Source of the DNA: Woeseia oceani
Lineage (GTDB): Bacteria; Pseudomonadota; Gammaproteobacteria; Steroidobacterales; Woeseiaceae
Assembly (NCBI RefSeq): GCF_001677435.1
Contig: NZ_CP016268.1
Coordinates: 2,593,001-2,657,000, forward strand
Direction: 5' to 3'
DNA: 64,000 nucleotides
Part shown: positions 41,202 to 53,797 of the stretch, piece by piece
Position numbering within the stretch: the first letter of the stretch is position 1
Layout: every line of letters starts with the position of its first letter
The notes under the pieces: model-generated
What the model saw: the letters and a program-made list of their open reading frames with translations, nothing else
Database searches by the model: none
Told to the model about the DNA's origin: nothing
Program-made: the position numbers and the translations under genes

Positions 41202-42482
41202 TCAGGCGGCGAATTGCTCCTCTTCAGTTGAACCGCTGAGCGCGGTGGTCGATGACTGACCCGCCATGATCGTGTTCTGCACAGCATCGAAATAGCCCGC
41301 ACCGACAAATGACTGGTGCTTCGCGGCGCGGAAACCGTGCGCCTCGTCGGCAAACTCACGCTGTTGCAGTTGCGAATAAGCGAACATGCCATCGGCCTTG
41401 TAGGCGCGACTGAGCCGGAACATGCTCGAGTTCAGCGCATGCCAGCCGGCCAGCGTAATGAACTGGAACTTGTAGCCCATCCTGCCCAGTTCCTCGCGGA
41501 ACGTGCGCATCGTCTGCTCATCGAGATTGGCCTGCCAGTTGAATGACGGCGAGCAGTTGTAGGCCAGCAGTTGTTCCGGGTAGCGGCTGTGGATTGCGTC
41601 CGCGAATTTCGCGGCCTGTTCAAGATCAGGTTTGGAAGTTTCGCACCACAGCAAATCCGCGTAGGGCGCGTATGCCAGGCCCCGTGCAATAGCCTGATCC
41701 AGCCCGGCGCGGGTTCGGTAGAACCCTTCCGCGGTGCGCTCGCCGGTAATGAATTCGTGATCGCGCTGGTCGACATCCGACGTTATCAGGTTGGCAGCGT
41801 CTGCGTCGGTGCGCGCCAGCAAGACGGTCGGTACGCCGAGGACATCGGCGGCCAGGCGGGCCGCTGCGAGCTTGCCGACGGCTTCCTGAGTCGGGACCAG
41901 AACTTTCCCGCCCATGTGTCCGCATTTTTTTGCGCTGGACAGCTGATCTTCAAAATGGACCCCGGACGCGCCGGCACGAATCATATGCTTCATCAGCTCA
42001 AACGCGTTCAGATTGCCGCCGAACCCCGCTTCAGCATCCGCGATAACCGGCGCAAGCCAATCGATCTCCTGCTTGCCATCAAGCGCCTGAACTTCATCGG
42101 TCCGCAGCAATGCATTGTTAATGCGTTCAACCATCTTGGGCACCGAATCAGCCGGGTAGAGGCTCTGATCCGGGTACATTTCACCGGCGCTGTTGCCGTC
42201 TCCGGCAACCTGCCAGCCAGAACAATAAATCGCTTTCAGACCTGCCTGTACTTCCTGGATCGCCTGGTTACCGGTCATCGCACCGAGCGCACATAGCGGC
42301 TCTGAGCGATTAATCAGGCGCCATAGCTTTTCAGCGCCCAGCCTCGCCAGCGTATGCTCGATGTGCACGGACCCGCGCAGTTTCACAACGTCAGCAGCAC
42401 TGTAATCGCGCCGGACATTTTTCCAGCGCGGGCTGTTGCTCCAAAGCTCTTCCAATTCCCGTGTTTGCTCTTCTCGTTGCAT
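41202..42482 (-). CDS. aceA: Isocitrate lyase
   Basis: 426 residues with the signature [12 protein letters not shown] (catalytic Cys187, Lys and His around it), [18 protein letters not shown] and [12 protein letters not shown]. It splits isocitrate into succinate and glyoxylate, the first step of the glyoxylate shunt, needed for growth on acetate or fatty acids. It has an AGGAG site 8 nt before ATG 42482. It diverges from an ScfR-type regulator gene whose repeats lie in the shared promoter region. Confidence 0.96.
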
Positions 42483-42604: not shown

Positions 42605-42617
42605 AAGGTGGTTGAGC

Positions 42618-44180
42618 GTGGCGACAACAAGCCTGATGCGCAAAGCGCATTTCCTGGGAACCAAAATTCGCGCTTTACGCAAACGCAACAACCTAACGCT
42701 GGAGGACCTGTCCGTGCGTTGCGTACAATTCGACGCGGAAAACGCGCCATCGGTGTCCTACCTATCCATGATCGAGAACGGCAAGCGCGTCCCTTCGGAA
42801 GCGTTAATGGCCACAATCGCTGCAATCTTTCAGAAAGACATCAACTGGTTTTTTGACGAGACGCTGGAGGCCGAACCAATTGCTGTTGCGCCGAAGTCGA
42901 CCGGTATCGATGGCATGCCACTGGAACCCGGTTTCCTGTTCAGCGGCGAGCAATTGCAAATAGCCATTCCCGAACTGCTGTCACAAACGGGGACAACAGG
43001 CACCCAGTTTGCTCACCTGCTTATTCGCGCACATCAGGAAACCCGCCAGAACCGATTCCCGGACCTTGAACGCGCAGCCGAAAGCATAGGCCGCAAGGTA
43101 TTTCCGCTGACGCTGGATGACCTGCTCGGGATGAGCAAGCGTGCCGGTCTGCGCATACGCTGGTTCGATCGTGCCGCGAGCCGTGATCGACGCGGCGCGG
43201 CCGACTCCATGAACACGCTGCTGCGATCATTCTACGAAGCGCCGAACGTATTGTGGATAAACCGCAAGCTGGAAAAAGTACCGCAACGCCTGAAATACGA
43301 CCTTGCGAACCATCTCGGTCATCGCTTGTTGCATGACGGTGACGGCGCAAGAGCTGCGCAGGTATCGGGCGACAGAACTCAGGCACGTCACCCGGAGGCC
43401 GAGTCGCCGCAACTGGATGCCAAGGACATTCTGTACGCCTGGCGGGACTTTGAATGCAGCTACTTTGCCGCCGCACTGCTCGCGCCAAAAACACCGTTTC
43501 GGCAATTCCTGGCCCGGCATCGCTACTCCATTGACAGTGGCAAGCGCGCCGAGCTATCGCCCGGGCTGACGATGCGACGCATGACCAGCGTCTCCCCTTA
43601 CCCTCACTGGCATTACTTCGATGCTTACCCGCCGGGCAACCTGCGCGCTGTTTACCGTGGCAACGGCATCCCCCTGCCGTGGGGCAATATGCGCATGGTC
43701 TCCGACCCGTGCCAGCACTGGGCCGTGTTCAAGATGTTGAACGCGGCAGACGGCTCTCCGTCGGCGCAGATTTCCGTTCTGCGCAGCGGTGACGACAAGC
43801 GTCTTTATTGTTGCGAATCCGTGCGCGCCAGGGATGCTGCCGGTAATACGCACGTCATGTGTGCCGGCATAGACCTGGCGCCGGCTCTGATCGCACAGGG
43901 TATCGATCCGGTCGAAACGACCAACGCGATAGAGCATTCGTGCAACAAATCCGGCGGGGTCGGCGCGATCCCGGTCACTGCCCGCCGGCAACTGGAGGCC
44001 ATAGGCAAAATTCTGAACATAGGCTGGATTGCGGATGGCGCAGCCCGCGTAGCGAGCATCATTTGTCCGCGTAGCAGAAACTGTCCGCGCGATAAACATT
44101 GTCTCGGCAAAGTCACTACCCGACGAAAAACCGGGCAGGACGAGATGCGCGCTCAGATCATGCAGGCAGCGAAAGACTAG
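42618..44180 (+). CDS. ScfR/RamB-type XRE regulator of the glyoxylate shunt
   Basis: 520 residues from GTG 42618, chosen for the AAGGTGG site; TTG 42612 is in frame. An N-terminal Cro/C1-type helix-turn-helix (about 13-68: KIRALRKRNNLTLEDLS then SYLSMIENGKRVPS) is followed by an IrrE-like/ImmA-like region (DLANHLGHRLLHD) and a C-terminal DUF2083 domain with a Cys cluster (CPRSRNCPRDKHC). Known relatives (RamB, ScfR, PrpR) sense short acyl-CoA and control acetate and propionate genes. Divergence from aceA strongly supports that role. Confidence 0.9.
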   Translation: MATTSLMRKAHFLGTKIRALRKRNNLTLEDLSVRCVQFDAENAPSVSYLSMIENGKRVPSEALMATIAAIFQKDINWFFDETLEAEPIAVAPKSTGIDGMPLEPGFLFSGEQLQIAIPELLSQTGTTGTQFAHLLIRAHQETRQNRFPDLERAAESIGRKVFPLTLDDLLGMSKRAGLRIRWFDRAASRDRRGAADSMNTLLRSFYEAPNVLWINRKLEKVPQRLKYDLANHLGHRLLHDGDGARAAQVSGDRTQARHPEAESPQLDAKDILYAWRDFECSYFAAALLAPKTPFRQFLARHRYSIDSGKRAELSPGLTMRRMTSVSPYPHWHYFDAYPPGNLRAVYRGNGIPLPWGNMRMVSDPCQHWAVFKMLNAADGSPSAQISVLRSGDDKRLYCCESVRARDAAGNTHVMCAGIDLAPALIAQGIDPVETTNAIEHSCNKSGGVGAIPVTARRQLEAIGKILNIGWIADGAARVASIICPRSRNCPRDKHCLGKVTTRRKTGQDEMRAQIMQAAKD

Positions 44181-44225: not shown

Positions 44226-45200
44226 TCAAGCAGGGAAAAAGTCGATAGGTTTGGTTGTGGTGATGGCTTCGACATCGCGCGCTTCAAAACGGAATAGACG
44301 GATGCGTTGTACCAGCTTGCGCTCCAGCTCGGCGTCGCCCAGCTCACTCGAAACGACTTCACACAGAGTAACTTCGCCACTGGGTGCAATGGTCAGGCGC
44401 AGTACCAGCTTGCCTTGCAACGACGGATCCTGTCGCAGCGCTCGATTGTACAGCGCGAAGATCGCCCCTTTGTTGCGATCAAACACAAGCTCTATTTCTT
44501 CACGGCTGCGGGAAGCTTTGCCGCTTGACCCGGTGCGCCGTGCCTCACCTGCCGCTGCGCCGAGGCCTGCTACCGGGCTGGCCACTTGCGTTGTATTGCG
44601 GTCGCCAAGTCCGCTACCGCCAGTATTACGGCTCATGGCTGCGGTATTAATACCACCGCTCGATGTGCCCACACTGGAGGTAATCATCGATCGCTCATTG
44701 CGCACCGATTCACCAACGGATGCCGTTAATGGCCGCGTATCGGCGACTTTCTCGAGCGCATCATTGTCGCGCAACGACGCAAGGTCCTGAGTGAACGGCA
44801 ACAGCGCCGCTTGTGCTCTTTCCCGGGCCAGTTGTTGCTGATCAACCGGAGCCGGTACCGGCTCGGGTTCCGGAAGCGGCTGAGGTTCCGGTTCCGGCGT
44901 TGCCTCGACCACTTGCTGCGGCTCGGGTTCGTTAAGCGGTACCGGCTCAGGCTCAGGTTCGGGTTCAACGCGCGGTGGTGGAGGCGGTGGCGGCTTGTCC
45001 TGTAACAACAACTTGGCGATGCGCGGTGGAATTTCTTCAATCTCGTTCGGGTCCGGCTCCGGCGACGGCAGGAACGGCCAAACGAGACCGAGGAACGCCA
45101 GCGATAACATGACGATCAGCAGCAGACGGCGAAACTTGCGTTCCTGTCCGGAGTCGTTGCTCCATGGCAACTCAAACTCTCTGTAGTACGGAATATCCAA
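44226..45200 (-). CDS. AgmX/PglI C-terminal-domain TonB-like protein (GltG/GltJ-like)
   Basis: 324 residues. A short cytoplasmic N-terminus and one membrane helix (about 25-43) precede a Pro/Glu-rich stretch (75-125) that can span the periplasm. A Ser/Gly linker follows. The C-terminal domain (about 230-324: DRNKGAIFALYNRALRQDPS, GKLVLRLTIAPSGEVTLCEV) matches the AgmX_PglI_C fold seen in gliding proteins, related to the TonB C-terminus. It is last in a nine- or ten-gene operon with TolQ/TolR homologues, and would carry motor force to outer partners. Confidence 0.83.
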   Translation of the reverse strand: MDIPYYREFELPWSNDSGQERKFRRLLLIVMLSLAFLGLVWPFLPSPEPDPNEIEEIPPRIAKLLLQDKPPPPPPPRVEPEPEPEPVPLNEPEPQQVVEATPEPEPQPLPEPEPVPAPVDQQQLARERAQAALLPFTQDLASLRDNDALEKVADTRPLTASVGESVRNERSMITSSVGTSSGGINTAAMSRNTGGSGLGDRNTTQVASPVAGLGAAAGEARRTGSSGKASRSREEIELVFDRNKGAIFALYNRALRQDPSLQGKLVLRLTIAPSGEVTLCEVVSSELGDAELERKLVQRIRLFRFEARDVEAITTTKPIDFFPA

Positions 45201-45234: not shown

Positions 45235-45762
45235 TTAGCGATTAGCGGCGAGTTCGCCGAGCTGATCAGAACTTTTCTGCAGTACCGCAAGCGAGATTCG
45301 GCCATAGTCCGAATCGGTGCACGTTGCCATGACCTTTTTCAGTAAACGGTAGGGAATGTCCCTGTCTCCCATGATCGTCACTTCACGATTGGCCACGTCG
45401 TCTTCGGCCGTGCGCCGCAGCACGCGGTCGTTCTGCCGCAACAGGGCCGCTTTCAACTCAGGAATACTGTTGCCGCTTTGCTGCATCACATCGTCAACCT
45501 TTGCCACTGGCGTGCCCTGCACGATGATGTCCGTGTCGCCGATCAGAATGACAACCGTTTCCTTGGCTTTTTCTTCCGCTATCGATTCGGGCAACTGAAT
45601 TTCTTTCGCATTCGGCAATACTTCCACGTCGGAAGAATTAACCAGCAGGAAGAAGACCAGAATCGTAAAGATGTCCATGAGCGAGACCAGGTTGAGCGAA
45701 CCGCCCTTTTTGGCCTTCGAGTGGCGTCGATCCATGCGCTTGGCGCGTGCTGACATTTTCAT
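45235..45762 (-). CDS. TolR/ExbD-like protein with intact membrane Asp
   Basis: 175 residues. One membrane helix carries the motif LNLVSLMDIFTILVFFLL. Asp30 (codon GAC) is the proton-binding residue known from ExbD/TolR/MotB. A periplasmic domain follows (IQLPESIAEE, TIMGDRDIPYRLLKKVM). ATG codons at residues 1 and 3 both fit. It lies 2 bp after a second ExbD gene and should pair with it in a heteromeric stator with the adjacent TolQ-like protein. Confidence 0.9.
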   Translation of the reverse strand: MKMSARAKRMDRRHSKAKKGGSLNLVSLMDIFTILVFFLLVNSSDVEVLPNAKEIQLPESIAEEKAKETVVILIGDTDIIVQGTPVAKVDDVMQQSGNSIPELKAALLRQNDRVLRRTAEDDVANREVTIMGDRDIPYRLLKKVMATCTDSDYGRISLAVLQKSSDQLGELAANR

Positions 45763-45764
45763 GT

Positions 45765-46277
45765 TCAGTCGCCTCCCGCGCTGATTGGTGCATCACCGAT
45801 GGAAATATCCGGAAACAGATCCGTACGCACGATGGAGTCATCAACAATGCTCTCGGCAACCCTGACCCGATCCATGACCTGAACCAGGGTGTCATAGGGA
45901 ATGTCTGCTTCGAGCAAAATCGATGCGTCGGTTTTTTCCGGATAATTCGCTTTCAGTTCTGTCAGTTTGGTACTCAGCGCGTCGAAGTCGTAGCCGTCCG
46001 CGCCCACCGGGTAAAGCCCCAGCGCACCAACGTTTCTATCGCCTACTTCGATGCCATTCTCACGAACAATGATTTCCAGCTGAAATACCAGTTCCTGTTC
46101 ATCGACGGGCTCGTTCGAGGCACCTGGCAGATTCAGTTCCAGAATGGCCAGTCGCGAGAACACTGCCGTGATCAGCAGAAACGGAACCAGAATGACCATC
46201 AGGTTCATGAAGGCCGTGATGTTCAGTTCGGCCGTTTCCGCATCGCGGCGACGACCTCCCCGGCGGCTGCCTCTCAC
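45765..46277 (-). CDS. TolR/ExbD-like protein with Asn in place of membrane Asp
   Basis: 170 residues. The helix motif LNITAFMNLMVILVPFLL aligns with that of the neighbouring ExbD, but the key Asp is Asn25 (codon AAC, checked on the strand). The periplasmic part contains EADIPYDTLVQVMDRVR, the usual TolR-like end. The gene overlaps the TolQ-like gene by 4 bp. It probably forms a mixed dimer with the Asp-bearing paralogue. Confidence 0.9.
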   Translation of the reverse strand: MRGSRRGGRRRDAETAELNITAFMNLMVILVPFLLITAVFSRLAILELNLPGASNEPVDEQELVFQLEIIVRENGIEVGDRNVGALGLYPVGADGYDFDALSTKLTELKANYPEKTDASILLEADIPYDTLVQVMDRVRVAESIVDDSIVRTDLFPDISIGDAPISAGGD

Positions 46278-46930
46278 CCGGCTGCTCCGGCCGGCTTAAG
46301 TTGCCGTTCGGTGATCGCGTTCAGAAACTTGACGCTGGCCATTTCGAGGCTGTCGACAATCTGATTGGTCTTGGTCTGCAACAAGGCGTGAACCAGCAAC
46401 AATGGAATCGCCACCATCAAGCCGAATGCCGTCGTGTTCATCGCCACCGAAATACTCGCTGACAACAAATCCGCCTTGTCGGCCGGGTTGGCATTCGATA
46501 CGGCGGTAAACGCCCGGATAAGACCGATAATCGTACCCAGCAGACCAAGCAGCGTTGCAATGTTGGCCAGAGTCGCGAGGTAGTGCGTGCGCTTTTCCAA
46601 ACGCGGCAACACTTCCATCAGACTTTCTTCCATCGCCTTTTCGACGTCATCCCGGCGTCGCGCTGACTTAACCCGGTACAGGCCGTAGGTCAGAATCGAA
46701 GCAATGGCCGCTTTCGATTTCGAGGTCATGGAAGCTGCTTCCTGGAAATTTCCCGCTTTCAGGAACGGGACGATTTTTTTCCACAACGCACGATTGCTCG
46801 CGCCGGAAACGGTGAGATACATCCAGCGCTCGATGGCAATTGCCAGGCCGAGGCCGAACACGACCAGAATCGGGTACATGAATGCCCCGCCCTGTTCAAA
46901 GAAACGCACTATGGCGCCCAAACTGTCCAT
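46274..46930 (-). CDS. MotA/TolQ/ExbB proton-channel family protein
   Basis: 218 residues with three membrane helices (about 14-36, 117-140, 160-182). The conserved segment ATLLGLLGTIIGLIRAF and the next helix SVAMNTTAFGLMVAIPLLL carry the Thr residues that line the proton path in this family. It builds the pentameric stator around ExbD/TolR helices. Two ExbD genes lie directly downstream. A single TolQ with two distinct TolR proteins is the AglR-AglQ-AglS arrangement. Confidence 0.92.
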   Translation of the reverse strand: MDSLGAIVRFFEQGGAFMYPILVVFGLGLAIAIERWMYLTVSGASNRALWKKIVPFLKAGNFQEAASMTSKSKAAIASILTYGLYRVKSARRRDDVEKAMEESLMEVLPRLEKRTHYLATLANIATLLGLLGTIIGLIRAFTAVSNANPADKADLLSASISVAMNTTAFGLMVAIPLLLVHALLQTKTNQIVDSLEMASVKFLNAITERQLKPAGAAG

Positions 46931-46978: not shown

Positions 46979-47401
46979 TCATTCCTGCCGTTCACGAAGT
47001 TCGTCGTAGTAACGAACCTGTCGTACAAACTCTCCGCGATCTATCGGCGCCAGCACCTCGTCAAGCAAGGTATTCACCGGCTTGCCCATCAAGTCACCCG
47101 GATCCGATTTTTGCCAGGGCACGATGTACAGCACCTTGGGCAGTTCCTGATTGCCGGTAATCTCGGTCCGCTCAAGATCAATCTCGTCCATCACCCGGCT
47201 GCCGGTCTCCGTTCGTCGTGCCTCGTTCGCGAGCACGGTTGACGGCACACCGGGCTCCAATGCGTCCCGTTCGGCGGCTTCAGTGACATCACCTGCCGTT
47301 TCAGCGACCGCCTCGTTCGCAGCCGGAACCTCAGCAGCCTCTTGCGCATGCAAGGCACCCGCAATCGTCAGCAGCAATATTCCGACGAATTCACATTTCA
47401 T
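46979..47401 (-). CDS. Unknown exported protein in the motor operon
   Basis: 140 residues from ATG 47401, preferred for GGAG 8 nt upstream; GTG 47410 overlaps the preceding stop. A signal peptide ends near LHAQEA. An Ala/Glu-rich linker (about 20-55) leads to a conserved-looking C-terminal part (RTEITGNQELPKVLYIVPWQ). I do not recognise the family. The tight placement between the TPR lipoprotein and TolQ-like genes argues for a structural role in the same envelope complex. Confidence 0.65.
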   Translation of the reverse strand: MKCEFVGILLLTIAGALHAQEAAEVPAANEAVAETAGDVTEAAERDALEPGVPSTVLANEARRTETGSRVMDEIDLERTEITGNQELPKVLYIVPWQKSDPGDLMGKPVNTLLDEVLAPIDRGEFVRQVRYYDELRERQE

Positions 47402-47406
47402 ACCGG

Positions 47407-48051
47407 TCACTCCGTCACATTTGCGGTACGTTGATTGGACTCAAGTCGCCGTTTGAGATCGGCTATCCACTTTTCGACCTGCTCATCGCCGCCATTCAGG
47501 CTTTGATAGCGCTCAAAGTGCATGAGGGCCGCTGCCAGGCGCTGCAAATACAGCTCGTTCAGGACACCCAGGTTGTAGTGCGCCAGCGCGTAGTCAGGCT
47601 GTGCCTCGACCGCCCGCAGGTAAGCGTCCTCGGCCTCGTCGAAACGCCCCTGCCGGCGGCGCAGCATGCCCAGTTGATTCAGCGCCGGTGCGTAGTGCGC
47701 ATCCAGCGCCAGCGCTGCCTGAATACTTACTTCAGCCTTGAGATCGTCGCCCGCCCGCGCCTGCAGAATCGCGAGATTGACGTGCGCACCCGGGTAATCC
47801 GGGTAGCGCAGCAGAAAATCGGCGAACCGCAGCTGCGCATCGATGTCGTCGCCAGCGGCCATGACGGCAACGGCCTGTTCGTAAAGTGTTTGTGCAGCCG
47901 CGGGCACCTGGCTGGCGACAGGTTGGGCGTTGTCCGCGCTCACAGCCGGATCACCGGGCGCAGTGGCACAGGATGCAAGCCACAGGCAGGCAAACACCGC
48001 GATTATTCGCGGCCCGGCTGGCGATCGATCAGTACAACGCGGTAACAACAT
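47407..48051 (-). CDS. TPR-repeat lipoprotein (GltE-like)
   Basis: 214 residues with a lipoprotein signal (LASC, Cys28) and then several TPR units (for example YAPALNQLGMLRRRQGRFDE and YALAHYNLGVLNELYLQ). Residues after the Cys (ATAPGD) lack the Asp+2 inner-membrane retention signal, so outer-membrane anchoring is likely. It overlaps the preceding large TPR gene by 23 bp. A TPR lipoprotein beside a TolQR motor is the position held by GltE in Myxococcus. Confidence 0.82.
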   Translation of the reverse strand: MLLPRCTDRSPAGPRIIAVFACLWLASCATAPGDPAVSADNAQPVASQVPAAAQTLYEQAVAVMAAGDDIDAQLRFADFLLRYPDYPGAHVNLAILQARAGDDLKAEVSIQAALALDAHYAPALNQLGMLRRRQGRFDEAEDAYLRAVEAQPDYALAHYNLGVLNELYLQRLAAALMHFERYQSLNGGDEQVEKWIADLKRRLESNQRTANVTE

Positions 48052-50845
48052 CTTCGCTGCGCTCCAGTTTGGCGTACCGGCCCGGCATCAGCTTCGCCAG
48101 CGCGGCAAAACTTTTCTGCACCCATTCATCGTAGACACCGTCGACGCTGCGTGCGGCGTTGGTCTCGTAAAGTTCGATAGCTTGTTCTTCGAAAGGAAAG
48201 GCCTGCTCTTCCAGTAGCAGGTCATATTGCTCCAGTGCCAGTTCGTCCAGATCAGCCGGCCGTTCCGACTCCATCAGGTCGCGGCCGAACTGCTGGTAAA
48301 CCTCGCCCAGCCTGTAGGTGGCCGCTGTGGTGACCTCAGCCACACCGTAGTCCGCCGCATTGCCATAGGCCCGAACGGCTTCTTCCATCAGGTTTTTCTT
48401 CCGCTCAAGGCTGTCAGCGAGTGGCTGGGTAATGCGCGCATCCGCGAACCGTTGCCGGGCTGGCTCTGCGAGCTCCAGCGTGGCACGTGCCGCCAGCAAA
48501 CGACTCCGGTCGGAACGCTCGGCGCCCGCATCAGCATCAGCCTTTATCAGCTCGCGCAGACGCTGCGTACGCAATGCCGAACTGTTGTTCTGTTCGGCGA
48601 TCTGCAAGAGCCGGTAACGGGCTTCGATAGATTCACTCAGGGGTGACGGGTAGCGAATCACAACCAGTTCGAGCACCCGTTCTTCATCCAGTAATTCGCC
48701 GCTTTGTTTGTATAGATCAGCCGCTTGCCACCACGCTTCGCGACGTACGTCTTCGGTGCTGTTTGCTGCTTCCGCAATGCGTTCAAACTCGGCCGCTGCG
48801 GCCGTAGCACGCCCGGATTCAAGATAAGAAACAGCGAGCTTCTGGGTAACATCGTCAGCGAACTCGCTGTCCGGGTAATCGCGCCGGTATTCCTCAAGTA
48901 CAGACGAGGCACGATCCCACGCTTGCAGATTTATCAGTGCCGCCGCCGCATCGTATTCAGCAGTCTTGCGAATATCGGAATCCGGCACTGCTTCACCAAC
49001 GCGGCGGAACAACGCAACCGCTGTTTCCAGATCGCCTTCTGCACGCGCTGCTTCACCCTGTTTGTAAATCGATGAGGCAATGCGGTCTTTGATTTCCTGT
49101 TGTGCAACGAGGTCATCAACGGGCGTGTAGGGCCGCAACGAGTAATACGAAGACTCTGCAGCGGCGTACTGACCCAGGTCGAACTGGGAATGCGCGATTA
49201 CGGTCCAGGCAGTACGTGCCAGCGCATCGTCCACAGGCGGCTGCTTGCTGACTACAGCGCGCCCAACCGTCGTTGCCAGATCAAACTGGCGTTGCGCGAA
49301 CAGGTCTTCGGCAATCGTTGTCAGTACAGCACCGGACTCCGGATGCTGCGGATAGGAGTCTGCGAAGCGCAAACCACTATCAAGGTAACGTTGGTGCCAG
49401 GCTTCACGCTGCTCCGTCGGCATTGTCAGCTCATGCTCACGGTAGGCCAGTATGGCCGCATATGCGGCTTCGGCTGAATGCTCATGAGTCGGGTAGAAAT
49501 AGGCAGTCCGTTCGTATTCGTCTGTTGCGGCCGCGTAGTCCTGGCTCTCAAACAGAATTTCGGCCAGCAGGAAATTGGTGTTCGCACTATCCGGCTCATC
49601 CGGAAAGTACTCGAGAAATTTACGGTACCAGCGAGCAGCAGCCTGGTAGTCCGCCTGCTTGCCGTCGCGCTGTGCTTCAGCGTGTGAGTATTGGGCCAAA
49701 TCGGTCAGATTGCTCCGCAGATGTGCCGCCACTGCCTCGTTATCAGCCGGATCATTGCGCAACCAGAAAGGTTGATCCATGCCATAGCGCTCGACGAAAT
49801 TCTGCTTCGCCTCGAGCACCAGCATAGCGAAGCCACCTTGCTTGTATGCCTCAATAGCCGCTACCTGCAGCAGTGGGGCTTGTGGATGCTCCGCATCGTG
49901 AGCGACAAATGCCTCGTAGGTCTCAGCCGCATCAACGTAACGTTCCTTCTCGAGATAGAGCTCGCCGAGGTTCCTGTATACGACGTGACTGTAGCCAGGG
50001 TAACCGCGTCCGGCGAAGTATTCACTGATCGACTCGGCACCATCCATGTAGGAAAAACTGATACTCAGAACCCGAAAAGTATCTTCGACCAGTTCCCGGT
50101 CAGCGCGCTTCAAATCGCCAAGCGCTTCGCCGCTCGCAAGCATATCGACGTTGCCCAGTTTGCGGTCCAGCAACGAAAAGAACGGTCCGAGACTTTCTTC
50201 GTGAGTTGCCAGCTTGAACTGCGACCAGCCCAGTTTGTACAACGACTGTTCGTAGAAGCGCGATGCTTCACCATAATTGACAACGAACAGATAGGCTTCC
50301 TCTGCCTCGATATAGCGCTTGCGCAGGAACAGCATTTCACCGCGGCGAAATTCGACCTCATCGCGGCGCGCGGTTTCCGGGTAGCGCCCAACCAATTCGT
50401 TGAGGGTATCCAGAGCGGCATCCGTTTCTCCCGCCACTTCGTAAGCACGGGCCAGTTGGTACAGCACTGTGTCATTGCGACGATAGTCCGGGTAGGCCTC
50501 AAGCAATGACTTGAAGAGTGAAACGGCACTCTCGTAGCCCTGCCCACCCAGCTCGTCAATGTTGCTGGTCAGTTGCTCAGCTTCGACCGATTCAAGTTCG
50601 AGATCAGCCAGCCGGCGCATGGCTTCCGCTCGAAGCTCGGGGTCATCGGACACGAGATCGAGGAACGCCCTGTAGTTGTCACGGGCTTTGTTATTGCTGT
50701 CGTTGATCAGACGACCCGGACGTACCGGATAAGCGCGATTGCCCAGGCTACGAATCGTAGGTTCGTCGTCAGCCAGCGCCGGCAATGGCGACGCAAGCAA
50801 CATGGCCAGCACGGTCATCATTGAGCACGACATCAGCCGATTCAT
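48029..50845 (-). CDS. Large exported TPR protein of the motor operon
   Basis: 938 residues with a signal peptide (cleavage near ALADDE, about residue 25). The rest is almost entirely helical TPR/YbgF-like repeats (AYPDYRRNDTVLYQLARAYE, YIEAEEAYLFVVNYGEA, YAAATDEYERTAYFYPTHE). No catalytic motif is visible. It probably forms a periplasmic scaffold. The start overlaps the upstream TPR gene as ATGA and the end overlaps the lipoprotein gene, so three TPR genes are translationally linked. It may correspond to GltD. Confidence 0.82.
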   Translation of the reverse strand: MNRLMSCSMMTVLAMLLASPLPALADDEPTIRSLGNRAYPVRPGRLINDSNNKARDNYRAFLDLVSDDPELRAEAMRRLADLELESVEAEQLTSNIDELGGQGYESAVSLFKSLLEAYPDYRRNDTVLYQLARAYEVAGETDAALDTLNELVGRYPETARRDEVEFRRGEMLFLRKRYIEAEEAYLFVVNYGEASRFYEQSLYKLGWSQFKLATHEESLGPFFSLLDRKLGNVDMLASGEALGDLKRADRELVEDTFRVLSISFSYMDGAESISEYFAGRGYPGYSHVVYRNLGELYLEKERYVDAAETYEAFVAHDAEHPQAPLLQVAAIEAYKQGGFAMLVLEAKQNFVERYGMDQPFWLRNDPADNEAVAAHLRSNLTDLAQYSHAEAQRDGKQADYQAAARWYRKFLEYFPDEPDSANTNFLLAEILFESQDYAAATDEYERTAYFYPTHEHSAEAAYAAILAYREHELTMPTEQREAWHQRYLDSGLRFADSYPQHPESGAVLTTIAEDLFAQRQFDLATTVGRAVVSKQPPVDDALARTAWTVIAHSQFDLGQYAAAESSYYSLRPYTPVDDLVAQQEIKDRIASSIYKQGEAARAEGDLETAVALFRRVGEAVPDSDIRKTAEYDAAAALINLQAWDRASSVLEEYRRDYPDSEFADDVTQKLAVSYLESGRATAAAAEFERIAEAANSTEDVRREAWWQAADLYKQSGELLDEERVLELVVIRYPSPLSESIEARYRLLQIAEQNNSSALRTQRLRELIKADADAGAERSDRSRLLAARATLELAEPARQRFADARITQPLADSLERKKNLMEEAVRAYGNAADYGVAEVTTAATYRLGEVYQQFGRDLMESERPADLDELALEQYDLLLEEQAFPFEEQAIELYETNAARSVDGVYDEWVQKSFAALAKLMPGRYAKLERSEDVVTALY

Positions 50846-52701
50846 GGCGAAACATCCGCGCCTGTTGCCGACAGGTCGTAAATGGCGGCCAACGCAAAAC
50901 GTGCTTGTACCGTGTAAGTTTGCAGACGTTGTTTCTGTGTTTGCAATTCACCGATTGCGATGGACTGCAGAAAACCCCGTTGCTTGTCCATGGCCGCGCC
51001 TACGCGCTGGCGAAGGTCAAATATCTGCGGGTCCAGCGCAGCGATTCGACCGTCGAACTCGGCGAACATCTGCGGCTCATTGCGCATCGATTCATCCACT
51101 CGGCGCCGCGAACGTTGTGCGTCGACCAGCGCCACACCGCTGGCTCGGACTTCACGGCGGGCACGCCACAGCCGCTCTTTGAACTCTTTATCCAGCTGCC
51201 ACTGCAGAACACCTTTCAGCAACCGCACCCGGCGCCGGACATCGTCTGCTTCCGGGATGTCCGCCGACAATGCCGGCGTCCGCTCGAGAGCCGAGATTTC
51301 TCCCCACAGTGCAAATTCCTCGTCACTGGCCAAGGCCAGTGCATCGTGATTTTGTTCTATACCGTCTAGCCGAGCATCGAACGACAGTTTTCGATCAACC
51401 ATTTCTTCCAGGTCAGCCCTGGCCAGACTTTCCTGAATCAACGGCAAACGCTGTTCATAGGCCAGTTTCCGGGTATCCAGCATGTCCTGGAACACACCCA
51501 GACTGGTCTGCCAGCGTTCGAGATTTCGTGCGAGGTAATCCAGATCGCGGTAGTTCTTCAACCCTTCCTGAAATTCATCACTCGCCAGTAGGTGGTACAG
51601 GTAGCGGGACTCCGCGCCAGCCGGCAACTCGGTGATACTCCAGTGCCAGCCTGTGGTGTCATCCGCGTTGTCAGCAAGAAAACTGCTGAGCAGGCGACCC
51701 GATTGCAGTGCGTCTATGGTTGCATTGATACGATCGTCTTCTTCGCGAAACGCTTCGATCGCGTTCAAATAATGATCCGAGGCCTGACTGATCGAATCCA
51801 GTTTCGCCATGGCATAGGGAACCGCCAGCATCGACTCCTGCACCGCCGGATCAAGCAGATCGCGACCCCGCAGTTCCATCCATGGCACCAACGCCCGACC
51901 GAAGTCCTCGCGTTCCGCATCCGCCCAGCCAACACCGAGCAGAGCCTTGTTGGAAAACGGACCGTTGAGACGAACCCGCTGCAGCGGTTTCTTCGCGTCT
52001 TTCGCGGCACCCGATTGCAAATAGGCATAGCCCAAAGCGAGATTCGCTTTGTCCCGCAATGCGCTGAGTTCTTCTGTGTACGGTTCGAGTTGGCCGAGGT
52101 CGTCCAGGATGCGGGCGGCTTGATCCACCTGGCCGTCGCGAACCAGGGCGACGCCCAGATTGAACTGCGCGTAACTTGCCCATTCTGTACGGTCGCGCCA
52201 GCGATCCAGCAGTTCAATCGCCTGCCGATGTTCGCCTTTTTCAATCAATATTTGCGCCAGCAACATGCGGCGTTCAGCTTCCATAGCGCCGGGAAGCTCA
52301 TCCTTAACATTGTTCAGTGCACTTTGCGCCTCATCGAAGTAGCCGCGCTGATGCCAAATTCTTGCGAGGAAGAACCAAGTTCGATCCCGAACCGATGGAT
52401 CAGCGCTCGCCGCAAGCAAGCGCTCGAAAATGCCGGCGGCACGCTGGTGCTGGCCATACGACAGGTAGAGGCCGCCCAACAGCAGTTCGGCCTCGGCGTC
52501 ATGGTTGGGCAAACGCTCGGCTTTCTGCGCCGCGAGCAGTTTTACGATGGCGGGAAAGTAGTCTTCCTGATAGAAGTCGAACAGCACTTCGCCGTAATAG
52601 GGGTCCTTGACTATCGTCGGCGGCAACGCCTGATCAGCATTGGCGACGTGCCCGACGAACAGGAGCACTACAAACAAACTGGAAGCGCGTCGAAAGATCA
52701 A
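50842..52701 (-). CDS. Second large exported TPR protein of the motor operon
   Basis: 619 residues with a signal peptide (cleavage near ANADQA). TPR repeats fill residues ~40-300 (AAGIFERLLAASADPSVR, YAQFNLGVALVRDGQVDQA). A C-terminal coiled-coil-like region (about 390-600) is rich in Arg, Glu and Leu. It has no enzyme motif. It follows the unknown 185-residue gene by 3 bp and overlaps the 938-residue gene by 4 bp. Confidence 0.82.
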   Translation of the reverse strand: MIFRRASSLFVVLLFVGHVANADQALPPTIVKDPYYGEVLFDFYQEDYFPAIVKLLAAQKAERLPNHDAEAELLLGGLYLSYGQHQRAAGIFERLLAASADPSVRDRTWFFLARIWHQRGYFDEAQSALNNVKDELPGAMEAERRMLLAQILIEKGEHRQAIELLDRWRDRTEWASYAQFNLGVALVRDGQVDQAARILDDLGQLEPYTEELSALRDKANLALGYAYLQSGAAKDAKKPLQRVRLNGPFSNKALLGVGWADAEREDFGRALVPWMELRGRDLLDPAVQESMLAVPYAMAKLDSISQASDHYLNAIEAFREEDDRINATIDALQSGRLLSSFLADNADDTTGWHWSITELPAGAESRYLYHLLASDEFQEGLKNYRDLDYLARNLERWQTSLGVFQDMLDTRKLAYEQRLPLIQESLARADLEEMVDRKLSFDARLDGIEQNHDALALASDEEFALWGEISALERTPALSADIPEADDVRRRVRLLKGVLQWQLDKEFKERLWRARREVRASGVALVDAQRSRRRVDESMRNEPQMFAEFDGRIAALDPQIFDLRQRVGAAMDKQRGFLQSIAIGELQTQKQRLQTYTVQARFALAAIYDLSATGADVSP

Positions 52702-52704
52702 CGA

Positions 52705-53262
52705 TCACTCCCATTCCCTGATTTCAAATTCCGGCTGTTGCTTGCTTACCCGGTCAGTGATGGAAATTTCAACGTACTTGGCACCGAGCCCCTTGGTCAG
52801 CGCAACGGTAGCGCCGCGACGGTAGTCTCGGTTTTGCGGCCCTTTGCCGGTGAACACGGCAACCAGTTCATGCTCGCCGACTTTGAGATTTTCCAGGTGC
52901 AAGCGCTGCACGCCACCTCGAACAAGAGCATCTGCTTCCCGGTCGGTGTAGAGATAGTTTGCTACTTCCTTGCCATCGATTTTCAAGTTGACTGAATCAA
53001 GAGCAAAGTATTCGCCGACGTCGAGTGAAAGAAAAAACGCAACCTGCGAGTTGGCGGGAAACAGCAACTCCTCTTCCAGTAAGAACAGATCGCGATTGAG
53101 TGCCAGCACTTCATCTTTTAGTGACTGAACGTCCTGGTCGATACTGCGAAACTCGTCTTGCACGGCGGCGGATTCCTGAGTTTCCTGTGCCGGCAGCGTA
53201 TGTGTAGCCATCGCCAGAATAAGGACACTGACTATGCCCCCGGCGCGAAAAAAGTTTGCCAC
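52705..53262 (-). CDS. Unknown exported coiled-coil/beta protein of the motor operon
   Basis: 185 residues from GTG 53262, with AGGAG 7 nt upstream. A signal peptide ends near LPAQET. A short coiled coil (about 35-65: QDEFRSIDQDVQSLKDEVLA) is followed by a beta-rich domain (SVNLKIDGKEVANYLYTD, VGEHELVAVFTGKGP) that looks like a PEGA/Ig-type fold. The family is not recognised. It lies 3 bp before the TPR gene, so membership of the same complex is likely. Confidence 0.68.
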   Translation of the reverse strand: MANFFRAGGIVSVLILAMATHTLPAQETQESAAVQDEFRSIDQDVQSLKDEVLALNRDLFLLEEELLFPANSQVAFFLSLDVGEYFALDSVNLKIDGKEVANYLYTDREADALVRGGVQRLHLENLKVGEHELVAVFTGKGPQNRDYRRGATVALTKGLGAKYVEISITDRVSKQQPEFEIREWE

Positions 53263-53296: not shown

Positions 53297-53797
53297 TTAC
53301 TCGCGTAGCAAGCCGCGAATTTGGGTCAGGTACTTCTGCTCGTAACCGGGCTTGTACCCATGATGCACGTGACGCACCGTGCCATTGCGATCGACGAGCA
53401 CCGTGACGGGCATTGCTTCTACCTGATAAAGGCGACTCACGTCTTTCGACTCATCGAACAACACCGGGAACTTCACACCCAGTTCTTCAACCATTTCCAT
53501 TGCGCGTCGCGAGTCATCATCAATATTGACGCCCAGCAACTTGAAGCCGACGCGTTCGTAGCGTGTGTAAAGATCGTCAAGCAACGGCATTTCCTGGCGG
53601 CACGGTCCGCACCAGGTTGCCCAGAAATTGATCATTACGACATCGCCCCGGTACTCACTGAGGCGCAGATTGCTGCCACTCGCACTTTTCAAGGCAAAGT
53701 CTGGCGCTTCCTGGCCAGTAAGTGACGACGACGCCAGGGTGGCCACTGAAACAACCGAGAGCGCACAGCCCAACAGCAGTGATTTAAGTCCGTTCAT
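53297..53797 (-). CDS. TlpA-like periplasmic thioredoxin
   Basis: 166 residues with a signal peptide (about 1-23) and the TlpA/ResA active site WATWCGPC (Cys63 and Cys66). It reduces or oxidises disulfides of exported proteins. It is 34 bp upstream of the motor operon and probably its first gene, but it could also be an independent housekeeping gene. AGGA is 9 nt before ATG 53797. The 295-bp gap upstream of it, to the ApbE gene, shows nothing recognisable. Confidence 0.9.
   Translation of the reverse strand: MNGLKSLLLGCALSVVSVATLASSSLTGQEAPDFALKSASGSNLRLSEYRGDVVMINFWATWCGPCRQEMPLLDDLYTRYERVGFKLLGVNIDDDSRRAMEMVEELGVKFPVLFDESKDVSRLYQVEAMPVTVLVDRNGTVRHVHHGYKPGYEQKYLTQIRGLLRE

Follow-up and report, generated by a model that had tools for sequence, protein, structure and literature searches.

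The analysed window, a 64,000-nucleotide stretch of the Woeseia oceani genome (contig NZ_CP016268.1, positions 2,593,001 to 2,657,000), carries a motor operon on its minus strand, running from about 53.3 down to 44.2 kb according to the open reading frame listing and Pfam/NCBIfam profiles. It is transcribed in the order 185-aa protein, two large TPR proteins, GltE-like TPR lipoprotein, 143-aa secreted protein, TolQ-type protein, ExbD1, ExbD2 and TonB-like transducer, and relatives keep the same gene order:

52705..53262, minus strand: 185-aa protein without NCBIfam match; first gene of the operon, conserved with it in several relatives
50842..52701, minus strand: second large TPR protein of the core complex
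48029..50845, minus strand: large TPR protein of the core complex
47407..48051, minus strand: GltE-like TPR lipoprotein; TPR match below the GltE equivalog cut-off
46979..47410, minus strand: small secreted protein of 143 aa with no assigned function
46274..46930, minus strand: TolQ/ExbB-type pentamer subunit (AglR-like); invariant relay Thr133 and Thr167; Thr166 co-varies with the one-acid state
45765..46277, minus strand: ExbD1 (AglQ position), non-protonatable type; Asn25 replaces the proton-binding Asp; Pro at +7
46203..46205, minus strand: codon AAC of ExbD1 Asn25, homologous to AglQ Asp28, TolR Asp23 and ExbD Asp25
45235..45762, minus strand: ExbD2 (AglS position), protonatable type; Asp30
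45673..45675, minus strand: codon GAC of ExbD2 Asp30
44226..45200, minus strand: GltG/TonB-like transducer; one TM helix, Pro-rich linker, AgmX/PglI C-terminal domain

ExbD1 and ExbD2 both match PF02472 (ExbD/TolR) at 59 bits each (cut-off 25.4), while the canonical TolR/ExbD equivalogs TIGR02801, TIGR02803 and NF008429 reach only 23.7–30.4 bits against cut-offs of 127–216; the AgmX/PglI domain of the transducer scores 63.6 bits (cut-off 40). A ResA/TlpA-like thiol-disulfide oxidoreductase gene (53297–53797) lies just upstream of the operon, as it does in some relatives (L358, L360, L361). Also beside the operon (41202–42482 and 42612–44180), what we take, from its own sequence alone, to be an isocitrate-lyase-like gene is transcribed divergently from a large helix-turn-helix regulator whose match to RamB is weak, an arrangement that looks ordinary.

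Clustered TPR genes, a GltE-like gene, AglR, two ExbD genes and a GltG-like gene are all present, and the operon is the group B glt/agl core complex of Luciano 2011 (PMC3169522). There, the core complex of non-gliding bacteria comprises gltC, D, E and G, aglR, Q and S and an additional gene, that is, the same operon content as in the window: TPR genes, GltE-like, small extra gene, AglR, ExbD1, ExbD2 and GltG-like. The 143-aa protein is probably this additional gene of the non-myxobacterial complex. The passages of PMC3169522 consulted do not mention a lost Asp, and a text search of it for 'aspart' came back empty. The AglRQS motor of Myxococcus shares this group B gene set and, like the window, has a TolQ-type gene followed by two ExbD/TolR-type genes (order AglR, ExbD1, ExbD2). 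It differs in having Asp in both AglQ and AglS (Myxococcus L254; PMC9389320) instead of Asn/Asp, in lacking Pro at +7, in the Cys or Asn that Asp/Asp relatives carry at TolQ position 166 instead of Thr, and in its partner genes. Two exbD genes beside one exbB are also known from the Xanthomonas tonB-exbB-exbD1-exbD2 locus, but that is a TonB import cluster, and in another known operon type combining TPR, tolQ-like and two tolR-like genes the TonB/AgmX C-terminal domain found in the window is replaced by vWA. The E. coli TolQRA and ExbBD-TonB systems have the fold families and the Thr relay pair in common with the window (T145/T178, corresponding to window TolQ Thr133/Thr167; for the relay role of T178 see PMC12583513 and PMC12965293), presumably with the same 5:2 stoichiometry, but possess a single TolR/ExbD gene per TolQ operon, its product forming a two-Asp homodimer, whereas the window has two ExbD genes.

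A preliminary description of the locus had reported two ExbD paralogues, one with Asp and the other with Asn at the proton-binding site. Both reading frames were confirmed on the minus strand, codon 25 of the 45765–46277 gene being AAC (Asn) and codon 30 of the 45235–45762 gene GAC (Asp), although the order of the pair needed correction, as the upstream gene, next to TolQ, is the one with Asn. The two residues occupy the same helix position and the helices align without gaps (LNITAFMNLMVILVPFLL and LNLVSLMDIFTILVFFLL); the single TM helix carries the proton-binding Asp in ExbD2 and lacks it in ExbD1. BLASTP places Asn25 on Asp28 of Myxococcus AglQ; correspondingly, in Myxococcus sp. CA023 the gene in the place of ExbD1 encodes a 162-aa protein with Asp at residue 28, equivalent to AglQ Asp28, and AglS also has Asp. 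In Myxococcus, the AglQ D28N substitution abolishes proton conduction, gliding and sporulation (PMC3858216), and the window ExbD1 therefore naturally carries the residue published as 'dead'.

An acid shifted to another place in the ExbD1 helix was ruled out: among 170 neutral ExbD1 helices, no other acidic or basic residue occurs from −5 to +13, with a few Glu or Arg at +14 and +16. Conservation is equally strong in the Asn-type and the Asp-type helix (mean entropy 0.59 and 0.66 bits, respectively, with about 2.1 in the periplasmic parts), and position 0 is always a small residue, which a tight pore would lead one to expect. This equal conservation, the lack of other ionisable residues and the small key position fit a packing of the Asn-type helix inside the TolQ ring.

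To place these observations in a wider context, we assembled loci in which a TolQ gene precedes two ExbD genes, with the window ExbD1 and TolQ and the TolQ of one relative as baits; Myxococcota genomes were reached through a contig scan for MglA. The 260 related tandem operons, from four phyla, comprise (ExbD1/ExbD2) 162 Asn/Asp, 80 Asp/Asp, 9 Ser/Asp, 2 Cys/Asp, 1 Thr/Asp, 3 Asp/Gly and 3 Asp/Ala, proportions that are not unbiased frequencies since operons were sampled by similarity to the window. This total consists of 246 distinct tabulated operons (158 N/D, 75 D/D, 9 S/D, 2 C/D, 1 T/D and 1 D/G, with L342 scored N/D by eye) and 14 further ones from one Myxococcota order (4 N/D, 5 D/D, 2 D/G and 3 D/A). 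The neutral subunit can thus be either one, with N, S, C or T in ExbD1 and G or A in ExbD2, and none of the 260 operons lacks the acid in both. As a control, 40 single ExbDs of the ordinary kind were sampled from same-class genomes, and all 40 keep Asp; with Asn in 158 of the 246 tabulated operons, sequencing error was ruled out as its source. The record L168 (BNCN01000011.1), whose title reads Comamonas sp. KCTC 72670, contains an MglA sharing 99% identity with the Myxococcus xanthus one and is for that reason probably mislabelled or contaminated.

Across most of the gammaproteobacterial clade the Asn/Asp combination is fixed, and it also occurs in Nitrospirota, Desulfobacterota and Myxococcota. 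The D/N split holds over a large clade but not throughout, as both proteins carry Asp in 80 of the 260 relatives, among them close ones of the same order. Such operons had been named in the preliminary description as the sign of a chance mutation, and their existence in close relatives is indeed what a chance or decaying change without function would lead one to expect. That reading is nonetheless extremely improbable, and with it a pseudogene, as the census already refutes it: Asn spans most of a clade and three further phyla, its position shows zero variation in the 70 Asn/Asp gammaproteobacterial operons compared, and other sites co-vary with it. At least six switches of state (see below), the other non-acidic replacements and the absence of operons without either acid likewise show that Asp/Asp relatives do not make the Asn accidental. 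From these comparisons, Asn is a fixed and selected, recurrent state of AglRQS-type motors, with Asp/Asp relatives alongside. Deamidation of Asn to Asp exists as a general reaction and would, if it acted after translation on Asn25, render both subunits acidic in the cell. No result here supports it and we consider it hardly credible, because Ser, Cys, Thr, Gly and Ala, which substitute at the same place in relatives, cannot become Asp.

The phylogeny of TolQ (careful IQ-TREE reconstruction, 105 rows) cannot be explained with fewer than six transitions between the one-acid and the two-acid state. In a quick TolQ tree of 102 rows, the Asp/Asp operons found in the window's own order (f2 and f259 families) branch from within Asn/Asp operons, the Nitrospirota/Desulfobacterota set is nested within the gammaproteobacterial clade, and Myxococcota AglR groups with the window TolQ in one tandem-ExbD clade (SH-aLRT 99). 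The number of changes and the nesting of Asp/Asp inside Asn/Asp indicate that the state switches in both directions. In one Myxococcota order (that of G862), the acid was lost from ExbD2 instead and kept in ExbD1: six reversed operons (L410–L412, L414, L416 and L417) combine Asp in ExbD1 with Gly or Ala in ExbD2, and have two Asp/Asp sisters (L413 and L415).

Several other positions follow the acid state. Pro at ExbD1 +7 is present in 159 of 170 neutral ExbD1 proteins and in 0 of 76 Asp-bearing ones. At TolQ position 166, adjoining the invariant relay Thr167, 159 of the 170 operons whose ExbD1 is neutral have Thr, while those with Asp-bearing ExbD1 have Cys (49), Asn (24), Ala (2) or Thr (1), the lone Thr belonging to an Asp/Gly operon. 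Among 222 TolQ columns it tracks the state best, agreeing in 5.5 of 6 independent pairs with 0 opposite; with only six independent switches available, the sign test gives a p of about 0.03 without correction for having picked this column as the best of the 222. In a partly held-out check, Thr166 is present in all six reversed operons, one of which was already part of the comparison, and Asn166 in the two Asp/Asp sisters. Finally, the residue at ExbD2 position −3 (S or A versus P) differs according to whether ExbD1 is neutral or acidic, which suggests that the ExbD1 and ExbD2 helices feel each other. Pro +7 and TolQ 166 are candidate sites for making the neutral subunit permissive, compensating for the lost Asp. 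TolQ columns 142 and 126 looked promising as discriminating columns in a first comparison and failed the independent-pair test. At TolQ column 162, corresponding to E173 at the proton-channel entrance of E. coli TolQ, many Asp/Asp myxobacterial operons have Glu, and Asn/Asp operons mostly Val or Ile.

The preliminary description had proposed a mixed dimer with a single protonatable site. Asn at the proton position, D/N fixation and several independent co-varying features together make an axle formed by a heterodimer, with a single proton site in each motor, the best explanation of these alignments, and one we consider somewhat probable; the one-acid part of the earlier proposal is thereby strengthened, while heterodimerisation itself is inferred. 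By homology, the operon would encode an AglRQS-type 5:2 motor powered by protons, in which five TolQ-like subunits would encircle an axle of one ExbD1 and one ExbD2. With ExbD1 Asn unable to bind a proton, ExbD2 Asp would be the sole proton carrier in this lineage, and since the acid is in ExbD2 only, the motor would be a naturally occurring asymmetric variant with a single site in place of the usual two. Each proton would turn the axle by a presumed step of 72 degrees, so that a full turn would take about 5 protons rather than 10, the Asn subunit passing along as a neutral follower, and force might reach the outer membrane via the GltG-like protein.

The main alternative is an ordinary motor built on a homodimer of Asp-type ExbD2, with the Asn-type ExbD1 lying outside the conducting pore as an accessory of the same complex, e.g., a periplasmic anchor or regulator. 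It would account for one acid always being kept, and the AglQ/AglS stoichiometry is not settled (PMC9389320). Thr at position 166 also occurs in 10 of 13 ordinary single-ExbD TolQ/ExbB systems, which work with two-Asp homodimers, so that Thr166 alone could equally mark a homodimer of Asp subunits. However, a helix outside the pore is not expected to be as conserved as the Asp-type, nor to be restricted to small residues at position 0, and neither the swap of the neutral role to ExbD2 (Asp/Gly, Asp/Ala) nor the tracking of state by Pro +7 and ExbD2 −3 finds an explanation; we therefore hold this alternative to be unlikely, though worth keeping in view. Considerably less probable still is a pair of motors sharing TolQ, with conducting Asp/Asp homodimers and non-conducting Asn/Asn homodimers serving as brake or spare anchor: homodimers are the rule for TolR and ExbD and the sequence data are compatible, but in the sampled operons the two ExbD genes sit side by side behind that of TolQ, and TolQ co-varies as though a single pore served both helices.

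The published turnstile scheme has two alternating sites, 36-degree steps and 10 protons per turn (PMC9389320). Weighing against a one-site axle, one acid is insufficient in the Asp/Asp motor of M. xanthus, where AglQ D28N leaves the cells non-motile despite the Asp retained in AglS (PMC3858216). In a toy turnstile model, one site plus a neutral residue allowed in either position still rotates, using 5 H+ per turn, and the stall torque is halved; the model stalls if the neutral residue strictly mimics protonated Asp, as AglQ D28N does in Myxococcus. Under the 'both sites neutral' rotation rule as coded, there was no net rotation even for Asp/Asp, so that this rule is uninformative.

The window motor is a widespread, unstudied relative of the Myxococcus gliding motor in which one of the two ExbD-type axle proteins lacks the proton-carrying acid. 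No description of a one-acid axle in such motors was found in the mostly open-access literature searched. Two equivalent, alternately working Asp residues are assumed in models of MotAB, TolQR and ExbBD, and the ten-fold symmetry of 5:2 motors has been called 'almost certain' (PMC9389320). Reviews have raised the questions of whether AglQ pairs with AglS in a mixed dimer and whether rotation proceeds via doubly protonated or doubly charged states; a naturally fixed neutral partner would answer part of this, since a doubly charged state is impossible with it. We give about even weight to the broader proposal of a widespread one-site class of 5:2 motors, in which ten-fold symmetry would become five-fold, a doubly charged axle would be unneeded and the number of sites would have switched repeatedly between one and two. 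One-site running, if true, would test how a whole class of bacterial motors works, and the close Asp/Asp and Asn/Asp relatives permit direct swaps measuring the contribution of the second site. Many relatives, such as G167, G689, G700 and G763 of the same order, have two diverged AglR-like TolQ genes each, and those inspected are followed by a tandem ExbD pair of their own; the genome of the window has one such TolQ gene.
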